Program-made: the position numbers and the translations under genes | The notes under the pieces: model-generated | Databases searched by the model: none | The model's input: only the letters and a program-made list of their open reading frames with translations | What the model was told of the DNA's origin: nothing | In this document: positions 32,064 to 44,748 of the stretch, one piece after another | Layout of the letters: every line of letters starts with the position of its first letter | Numbering within the stretch: the stretch's first letter is position 1 | Assembly (NCBI RefSeq): GCF_008195825.1 | Contig: NZ_CP043329.1 | Span: 930,001-994,000 of the forward strand | Direction: 5' to 3' | Length of the DNA stretch: 64,000 nucleotides | From: Pedobacter aquae | GTDB taxonomy: Bacteria; Bacteroidota; Bacteroidia; Sphingobacteriales; Sphingobacteriaceae

Positions 32064-33706
32064 ATGAAGCGTTTTATAGCATTTTTATATAGTGCCGTTT
32101 TGGTATTGATGATGAACAATAGTTTGGTACATGCTCAAGCTAAATCTACTTTTCAAAATCCTATTTTAAAAGGTTTTTATCCGGACCCATCAATTTGTAG
32201 GGTGGGAGACGACTATTATATGGTTACCTCAAGTTTTGAGTATTTTCCAGGAGTGCCCATTTTTCACAGTAAAGATTTAGTGAATTGGCAGCAAATTGGT
32301 CATGTTTTAGATAGGCCATCTCAATTAAATTTAGATAAAATTCATCCCTCTGGGGGGATTTTTGCACCTACCATACGTTATCATAAAGGAACTTTCTACA
32401 TGATAACCACCTTAATTACCAATAAAAACAATACAGGGACAAATTTTTATGTAACAGCAAAATCTCCTGCTGGTCCTTGGTCTGAGCCTAATTGGTTAAA
32501 AGATGCACCAGGTATAGATCCATCTTTGTTTTTTGATGATGATGGAAAAGTATATTATACAGGAAACAGAACTCCTGATGATAAACCAACTGGTTCTAAG
32601 TACAGACAAATTTGGATTCAAGAATTAGATACCGCAAAGAAACAATTGGTGGGTAAAGTTACCGTTGCTGTAGAAGAAGGTGCTTTACATCAAGCAGTAG
32701 TGGCAGAGTCTCCGCACATGTATAAAAAGGACGGTTATTATTATATCATGATTGCCGAGGGAGGCACTGGAATAGACCATGCGGTAACCATTTTTAGAAG
32801 TAAAATCCACTTGGGCCTTATGAAGGAAATAAGAAAAATCCTATCATTACACATCGTCATTTAGGTAAGCAATATCCTGTAGCTTGTATAGGGCATGCAG
32901 ATTTGGTAGAAACACAGCAGGGCGAGTGGTGGATGGTGTTACTAGGCGTTAGAACCTACGGCGGTTTTCATTATAATTTGGGCAGAGAAACATTTCTTAC
33001 GCCCATTAACTGGCAAGAAGATTGGCCTGTTGTGAATATAGGAGTTGGTAAAGTCTTACTTGAAGAAAGAAAACCTAATTTACCAGCCTTCACAGCTAAA
33101 AAAGAAAATACTTTTGATGATTTTAATAGTGATAGCTTACATTACTATTGGAATTTTTTACGTACGCCTAGAGCTAAATTTTGGTCTTTAACAGACAAGA
33201 AAGGCTATTTAGCTTTACAGTTAAGGCCGCAATCTTTAGTTGATATCGCTCAACCTTCTTTTATTGGAAGAAGACAGCAAGACACCTCTTTCTTTGCAGA
33301 AACAAAAATGCTTTTTGAGCCTAAAGCAGCACACGAAAGTGCTGGTTTGGTAGTCATGATGAACAATAATTTCCATTTCAGGATAGAAAAGATATTAGAA
33401 AACAGCAAGCTTTATCTAAAACTCATCAGAAGACATGCTGGAAAAGAGGAACTTTTGGCTAAGCAAGAAGTTTTAAAAGGAGAGCTTGTTATAGGTGTTA
33501 AAGCTATCGGTCAGGATTACTTTTTTTATGTAAAGCAAAACGATAAAACCGTTTTTCTAAAAGAAAATGTTGATGGCAGAACGTTAAGTAGGGTAAATAC
33601 CGGAGGATTTACCGGAACATATATAGGTTTATATGCCTCATCAAATGGTTTATCATCAAAAAATAAAGCATTTTATGATTGGTTAAACTATCAGCAAATA
33701 AAATAA
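32064..33706 (+). pseudogene. GH43 family enzyme, second copy, with single-base frameshift
   Basis: In two frames: 32064-32864 gives the start, and the same protein continues from about 32803 to 33706 in another frame. Repairing one base gives 547 residues that align throughout with the GH43 at 28786. The missing base is in the A4 run 32802-32805, where the paralogue reads AGTAAAAACATT and this copy AGTAAAATCC. The catalytic Asp41 (FYPDPS), Asp in PGIDPSLFFDDDG and Glu in VVAESPHMYKK are all present. The function would be as for the first copy. I suspect sequence error rather than decay; see the frameshift finding. Confidence 0.85.
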
Positions 33707-33717
33707 TCCAACATCAT

Positions 33718-35255
33718 ATGAAACCTAAATTTTTAGCTTTTTTAAGCTTAAGTTTCTTGTTTTTAACAACTGTTATTGCACAAGAACAAAAGAAACCAAA
33801 TGTTTTATTCATTGCGGTAGATGATTTAAAACCTTATTTAAACTTTTATGGCTATGCGGCTGTAAAATCTCCAAACTTAGATAAGCTTGCGGAAAGAAGT
33901 ACCGTTTTTATGAGTAATTATTGCCAACAGGCAGTATGTGCCCCAACAAGAGCAAGCTTATTAACGGGGCTACGCCCAGATAGAACTCAGGTTTGGGATC
34001 TAAAGACACTCATCAGAGATAAAGTACCTCAAGTAGTTACTTTGCCACAACTTTTTAAAGAAAATGGCTATACCACAGCTGCATTAGGCAAAATATTTGA
34101 CCAAAGAAGTGTTGATAAAAAGCATGATGAAATCTCTTGGTCTGAGCCTTATAAAAACAAGTTTAAGTTTCCTGATGCTTATGGTGCACCAGTAGCTGGT
34201 CATTATCAAAATCCAGAGCTTAAAAAGAAATATGGCGATATATTAGAAGAAACACCTAATAATCCTAATGTGAAAGAGAATATTAAAGTTTCCACAGAGG
34301 CTTTAGATATTCCAGATGAAGCTTACGCTGATGGTGCTATGGTAACAGAAGCTATAAAAGATTTAAAAAAATACGGCAGCGCTGGCAAACCTTTCTTCTT
34401 AGCAGTAGGGATTCGTAAACCACACTTGCCTTTTGTGGCTCCAAAAAATATTGGGATTTGTATGATAGAAGCAAAATAGAACTTGCAAAATGGCAAAAGC
34501 CATCTATCGATGGACCTGCTATAGCTTATCATAATTCTGGCGAATTAAGAGGATATAATGATATTGTACCTTTAAACGCTGATGCAGAACAGCTAAGTTT
34601 AAGCGAAGATAAGCAGCGAGAACTTATACATGGTTATTACGCAAGTATCAGCTATATAGATGCACAAATAGGAAGGTTGCTTAATGAGTTAAAAGCATCT
34701 GGACTAGATAAAAATACCATTGTTATTCTTTGGGGAGACCACGGTTGGCATTTTGGCGACCATAGCCTTTGGAATAAGCATTCTACTTTTGAGCAAGCTA
34801 CAAGAACCCCTTTAGTGATTGCCTTACCTGGCCAGAAAGAAAAATTGATGTACCAACATCCTACAGAGTTTGTAGATGTTTATCCAACTTTGGCAGAGCT
34901 AGCTCAAATTAAAACCCCTCAAGGTCTTGATGGTAAAAGTTTAGTTCCTGCTTTAAAAGGAGTACAAACGCCAATCAAAGATTTTGCGATTAGCCAATAT
35001 CCACGTAAAGATAATCATATGGGTTATGCCCTAAGAACCAAAAAATACCGTTATGTAGAGTGGGTTAAGGATTTTAGAACAACAGGCAATTTTAATGCGG
35101 CCAATGTAAATGCTATAGAGCTGTATGATTATGAAAAGGACCCTCTAGAATCAAAAAATGTTGCTAACGACCCTACTTATAAAAAAATAAAAGAAGAGTT
35201 AAGCAATAAGATGCATACCTTTTATGCAGAACAAGCAGCAAAAGTTAAAAAATAA
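33718..35255 (+). pseudogene. S1-family sulfatase (iduronate-2-sulfatase-like), single-base frameshift
   Basis: Two frames (33718-34479 and 34458-35255) join into 512 residues if one A is added to the A6 run at 34443-34448. The joined text then reads [21 protein letters not shown], which is the normal S1_7 sequence. The signature is CAPTR (residues 74-78), in which Thr replaces the usual Ser; this variant is permitted in the sulfatase pattern. The signal peptide ends near VIAQ. A second half with WGDHGWHFGDHSLWNKHSTFEQ completes the active site. The start is ATG 33718. Genes on both sides are in the same operon. Confidence 0.85.
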
Positions 35256-35279
35256 GCTAACCATCAATATATCTCAAGA

Positions 35280-43420: not shown

Positions 43421-43439
43421 GTAAAATCCTTATTTTGCG

Positions 43440-43447
43440 CAAAGGTA
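43440..43447 (-). promoter_or_regulatory. -7 element of the ABC-F gene
   Basis: On the minus strand the sequence is TACCTTTG, 19 nt before the ABC-F ATG. No clear -33 TTG. Confidence 0.45.
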
Positions 43448-43576
43448 AGGTTTATCTGTGATAAATAAGGCTGGCTTTTATATTAATTGATGGATAAAGA
43501 ACAATACTGTCCTAAACGTTTATGAAAACATCAAAAGTAACGCAATAGCTTAAAATTTATGAGATAAAAATAGATT

Positions 43577-44748
43577 TCAGAAAAGAACCCCTTGAATAAC
43601 TTGTTTATCTTTTAGCTCATCGGGTTCTTCAAAAGGCCTATCGAGCCAATTCTGTAGATTTATTTTCACAAATATGTTAAGTCTGATAAATGCGATAAGG
43701 TTGGAGAGCTGCCATCCATATTTAGCCATTGCTTTAAGTGCTTTAAGGATGAGGATGGTAATTAGCGCTGTCCATATCTGTATCATCACGGCATTTTCTG
43801 TGGTTCCGATAAATGATTTGATATGCAGGTTCTGTTTGATCTCTCTAAAAAAGATTTCAATCTGCCATCTGCTTTTATAAAGCTCACTGATGGTGTTTGC
43901 TGTCCAATACATTTGATTGGTAATAATTTCTATAGTTTGTTCATTTTTATCATCCCAAACAGCCACTCTTCTTAAGTTTTTGGGATAGCTGTCCTTTGAT
44001 TTTGCGGTTTTAAGCTCAATAATCTCGTCAATCAGGATATTCTTATGCCTGTTCTCCGGCAATATATTTTCCTTAACTGTAGTATATTGGAGGTTTTCTT
44101 TATGTCTGATCACAAAAATACGCCGTTGCTGTCCCAAACATTCAGCAGGGCAAAGTCATTATAGAATCGGTCTGCAACAATAACACTTCCTTTGTGTAAA
44201 GGCACATCATAAGCTCCTTTGTTATCCGCAGTTTTGCCGTTGGTAATATTGACATATGCTGGTAGATTGCCATCATAATCAAGCAGAGTATGCAGTTTAA
44301 CCGCTCCTTTAGCTGTTTTGTACCTGGCCCAATCAAATAGAGAAAGACACAGACTGATAGTAGTGGAGTCTAACAGGAAGATTTTGGACTTAATCCTGAA
44401 CTTTATTTGTTTAAAGCCTGCCTGCTGTCCCAAACTTTCTAACAGTATGAAATAATAGGACTTGAAGATGTTATAGTCCCTGTGCTTGTTCTGATAGCTT
44501 ACACTAGATTTAGATGGAGCTTTTTGAATACCTAAATGATTGAGGTTGCCAGTAGCTGAACGAAGACCGTTACTAATATCACGTACCGATTGGCTTTTGG
44601 CAAACTGGCAGAACAACATCGATACTAGATGTGTCCAGCTTGTATAACCTTTATTATGTTTGTCGCTCTGAGATGTAGATACCAGTTTGTTGAACTTTGA
44701 ACGCTCAAGTTTTGATATGATTTGGGAGAATAGTGTTACATTTACCAT
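43577..44748 (-). pseudogene. IS4-family transposase, single-base frameshift
   Basis: Frames 44748-44110 and 44137-43577 join into 390 residues if one T is added to the T5 run (plus 44114-44118). The joined protein has the DDE residues: DSTTI (first Asp), ADRFYND (second Asp) and the YREK block YKSRWQIEIFFREIKQNL (Glu and Lys). It cuts and joins DNA ends in cut-and-paste transposition. Without the missing base the element cannot move by itself. A -1 ribosomal shift on the T-run could also join the parts, but IS4 elements do not normally use one. The start is ATG 44748. Confidence 0.85.

Follow-up and report, generated by a model that had tools for sequence, protein, structure and literature searches.

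The window analysed here, a stretch of 64,000 nucleotides corresponding to bases 930001–994000 of the single-contig genome of Pedobacter aquae (3,854,044 bases), contains six genes whose reading frames are broken within an interval of 11.3 kb, each by a single base. Have these genes been lost by the cells, or are the bases missing only from the published consensus? The sequence-only reading of the window had placed all six breaks in A/T homopolymers, regarded them as confined to the interval and favoured a local consensus error, with true decay and rescue by slippage as alternatives. Here the genome is compared with others of the same genus, among them G013 (probably Pedobacter puniceum), G011 and G009. 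Artefact and real mutation are judged by comparison of consensus sequences. On this basis the breaks are very probably sequencing errors, undercalls of A/T homopolymers that were left in the assembly across the whole genome.

Broken frames in the window

Three of the affected genes are adjacent on the forward strand. A GH43 gene, the second copy in the window (32064–33706), is divided between two frames at about 32802–32805: the Pfam GH43 profile lies in the first piece, and its end, followed by GH43_C2, in the second. The neighbouring sulfatase gene (33679–35255) is split at about 34443–34448, and positions 1–182 and then 196–301 of the Sulfatase profile are matched in two frames. The GH88 gene (35280–36472) is cut short at about 36311–36315, while the corresponding ORF of G013 runs on to the base matching 36472. 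The remaining three lie on the reverse strand. A member of the Ldh_2 (malate/L-lactate dehydrogenase) family (40720–41708) is broken near its 5' end, at about 41645–41647, and matches the profile only from 59 to 332. An ABC-F ATPase gene (41799–43420) is split at about 42418–42420, with ABC_tran and ABC_tran_Xtn in two frames. The last is an insertion sequence (IS) of 1335 bases (43502–44836), whose DUF4372/DDE_Tnp_1 transposase is split at 44114–44118. According to Pfam, the two halves of each of the GH43, sulfatase, ABC-F and transposase genes match successive stretches of a single family, in adjacent frames; the Ldh protein is missing the beginning of its family, and the GH88 protein is truncated. 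The nearest NCBIfam model for the ABC-F protein is PRK15064; the half encoded in the window and the whole G013 protein reach neither its cut-off nor that of any resistance model among the 25 models listed.

Short alignments bear out the one-base breaks. The genome has one base fewer than four of four aligned relatives in the GH43 and sulfatase genes, and one fewer than three of three in the GH88, Ldh and ABC-F genes, so that a related-genome comparison, the check proposed at the outset, finds the relatives one base longer at each of the five chromosomal genes; for the transposase, eight of ten IS copies are longer. One position had been misplaced. The Ldh break had been assigned to the T7 run at 41652–41658, which is seven bases long here and in three of three relatives alike; the gap lies just before it. 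The runs at the six breaks are 3–6 bases long. In the GH88 and Ldh genes a substitution adjoins the gap and blurs which base is missing, so that a homopolymer origin is likely, not certain, for these two.

The genes at 36474–39946, between the breaks, are open, and the view that no other long gene of the window is broken was upheld against G013: the variant at 56235 affects a 3' tail and recurs in G009, and the difference at 63627 precedes the likely start codon. At 40025–40658 a small pair of open frames, a Gp49-like protein (PF05973) followed by an HTH_3 protein, has a toxin–antitoxin-like arrangement.

Extent and signature of the deletions

The restriction to 11.3 kb is true only inside the window. 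In a wider sample of 493,439 bases of this genome (∼494 kb) aligned to G013, 27 of 318 G013 ORFs (150 aa or longer) are shortened here, versus 4 of 328 ORFs of this genome shortened in G013 (Fisher p ∼1e-5); in two of those four it is G013 that is one base longer, and these may also be deletions here. Control comparisons were made between relatives: G009 against G013 (37 kb, 25 ORFs) yielded one query ORF shortened by a one-base insertion in its 3' tail and none in G013, and G011 against G013 (46 kb, 28 ORFs) one query ORF shortened in the same manner and one in G013. Five of the 27 shortened ORFs were set aside before sites were counted: one that has no frameshifting indel, two complex cases (whose exclusion was the analyst's choice), one 3' tail variant and one simple one-base insertion. 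The other 22 carry a one-base deletion. Four of them (own starts 3066221, 3074474, 3720301 and 3755103) contain further indels, and the resulting 24 sites were therefore picked by hand.

Seventeen of these ORFs lie outside the window breaks. Among them, recQ, DNA polymerase IV, mtaB, shikimate kinase, yifB and beta-galactosidase have relatives whose models score over the cut-off, and an alpha-rhamnosidase and a TonB receptor are matched below it. No sampled block that could be aligned is free of one-base deletions; the 24 hand-picked sites fall in 431 kb of coding sequence, a density of about one per 18 kb. An error limited to the window is thus ruled out by the wider sample: consensus error remains the best supported explanation, and only its local character has to be given up. 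In the 11.3 kb interval this genome-wide process is moderately concentrated. The five coding sites of the interval give P=0.03 when runs are weighted by length, and P is 0.08 for the 19 sites left once the cluster is removed; the test covered aligned blocks only, left out the IS site and concerned a cluster that had already been noticed. Two further features were encountered in the genome. At G000:C1:1582023-1583131 there is another two-piece sulfatase, whose second piece has three in-frame stops, and at L177:12470-14984 (G000:C1:2472470-2474984) a tandem array of near-identical copies, with a unit of ∼358 bases, lies beside an IS.

The lesions have a marked direction. When coding A/T runs whose flanks match are compared, this genome lacks one base in 23 and has one extra in 4 (p=0.0003), under a rough coding mask that, by eye, leaves some counted runs of both kinds at gene ends. 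The rate in coding runs climbs with their length: 3 of 11,355 runs of three bases, 2 of 4,843 of four, 3 of 1,550 of five, 6 of 516 of six and 8 of 120 of seven. Intergenic runs are even, with 28 shorter and 27 longer. Sequencing errors would be expected in these runs as well, but long ones are few there, and by the analyst's estimate the coding rates would predict only about 3 extra, an excess too small to tell for or against an error. Conservation does not separate the broken ORFs from the others (median identity 0.926 in both, p=0.69), and the share of substitutions at third positions is 79.4% before the break, 76.5% after it and 75.2% in other genes.

The infB gene and the insertion sequence

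The same lesion is found in infB (L232:71-2916; G000:C1 ∼3258126), which has a single match in the genome and is shifted by one base just before the conserved IF-2 core. In seven of seven relatives compared, the gene is one base longer and its frame is open over 985–1018 codons. A core of 580 aa is still open here from a TTG, so that the break need not be lethal. In three family searches covering synthetases and translation GTPases, infB was the one broken case noticed, and the other large frames listed looked open; no broken gene was found whose core must be whole.

The IS is present in 10 copies, and in their alignment the transposase run is one base longer in 8. The shorter run at 44114–44118 is common to the window copy and to the copy at C1:2059080-2060414, which is otherwise identical to the window copy and has its own 9-base target duplication, as have nine of nine full copies. 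Another copy, at 1115223, carries a different one-base deletion. No substitution is private to any one of the ten copies, and of the two deletions one is private and the other common to two. A programmed frameshift in the transposase was ruled out by the longer run in 8 of 10 copies and by L003, in which the gene is one frame of 400 aa. Because the second copy has the same deletion, that of the transposase may be real and inherited, and among the six breaks it is the likeliest candidate for this; the analyst's estimate, from the rates in coding runs, is that an undercall would recur by chance in one of the nine other copies with a probability of ∼10% at the six-base rate.

The copy sharing the deletion belongs to a nested arrangement (G000:C1:2059012-2061691; L002, L010, L011), in which one copy of the IS is inserted in another: the inner one has the shorter run of the window copy, the outer one the longer run. 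The window copy itself interrupts, at the fourth to fifth codon, a gene that is present without the IS in G013, and the ORF called at 44687–45397 consequently begins inside the IS. In a second IS family (4 copies, 1041 bases) no indel was seen, in a sequence too short to be informative.

Undercalled bases or real deletions

In agreement with undercalling, deletions exceed insertions, the rate rises with run length, the relatives lack the breaks and these are blind to gene function and conservation, infB being among the genes hit; in the ten IS copies, too, a deletion is private to one copy but no substitution is. A/T homopolymers would have been undercalled in the consensus and left uncorrected over the genome, somewhat more densely in the 11.3 kb interval, and in the cells the GH43, sulfatase, GH88, Ldh and ABC-F genes would probably be whole. 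We infer both the presence of the missing bases in the real DNA and the kind of sequencing that would have produced such a consensus. Excerpts of a study of long-read assemblies (PMC12007338) describe an error profile of deletions in runs of two to eight bases, commonest in A/T, and assemblies in which such deletions fragment genes. As here, these are one-base deletions in short A/T runs, with many frameshifted genes across one genome and intact relatives; the density here is lower than that of the uncorrected draft with 1234 pseudogenes in the same excerpts. A literature search for homopolymer frameshifts in Pedobacter returned nothing related, judged by title. Counted against undercalling are the unskewed intergenic runs (although only a small excess is expected in them), the IS deletion common to two copies, the infB core that is still open and the natural deletion bias of Vibrio: in mutation accumulation, according to excerpts of PMC5854121, deletions outnumber insertions by a factor of two to three, an excess that shrinks or disappears when MutS is missing.

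The main rival to undercalling is that the deletions are real: a lineage that is a mutator, or in which selection is relaxed, would have contracted its A/T runs by single bases so recently that decay is not yet visible. It is unlikely, even though the run-length dependence also fits replication slippage, the two IS copies that share a deletion have separate target duplications, and no strictly essential gene was recognised among the 22 broken ORFs, several of which are nameless. In the mismatch-repair-deficient mutators of the PMC5854121 excerpts, one-base homopolymer indels likewise rise with run length, but insertions and deletions are nearer even, whereas here deletions dominate: 24 to 1 among the hand-picked sites, which has P=0.007 even under a 3:1 deletion bias. 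The best MutS_V match lies in an open frame of 879 aa and the MutL match in one of 625 aa, and a mutator arising by loss of mismatch repair was rejected on the grounds of these open, putatively functional frames. Real deletions are also hard to reconcile with broken genes that are no less conserved than others and that include infB. Somewhat more doubtful still is the reading in which a Pedobacter lineage, its mutS and mutL frames open, would be undergoing a very recent, near deletion-only erosion of A/T runs across its genome, with some shifted genes made as two overlapping pieces (infB, for example, from its internal TTG) and a transposase that, once shortened, would have spread to two copies of the IS.

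The remaining alternatives fare worse. Decay of a single glycan-utilisation cluster beside an IS is suggested by the adjacent GH43, sulfatase and GH88 genes, with the IS 7 kb away, but the same lesions occur in unrelated, distant genes, those lying between the breaks are open and codon constraint is not relaxed; it is highly improbable. Pseudogene decay in general is not supported by the third-position share, unrelaxed past the break, or by the conservation of the broken genes, although a very recent loss would not show in that share. Least credible of all is that the shifts are real and that slippage on A/T runs, during transcription or on the ribosome, rescues them. Such rescue is on record for frameshifted genes of Blochmannia and Buchnera in excerpts of PMC3017870, and E. 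coli RNA polymerase, in a passage of PMC6260861, gives low-level rescue of deletions at tracts as short as A5 and T7. The insect endosymbionts resemble the present case in having A/T-run shifts in genes without other decay; yet in the same PMC3017870 excerpts genic polyA tracts of at least 9 bases abound, the Blochmannia work stresses tracts of 9 or more and some shifts are common to lineages, whereas the window runs have 3–6 bases and the shift is kept in none of the three or four relatives aligned for each gene.

Real deletions would represent an unusual mutational regime worthy of study. With undercalling as the best supported explanation, the presence or absence of genes in this genome, among them the glycan-degrading enzymes, the ABC-F ATPase and infB, is not readable from the annotated frames, and scaling 24 sites per 431 kb suggests that some 190 coding breaks may exist genome-wide.
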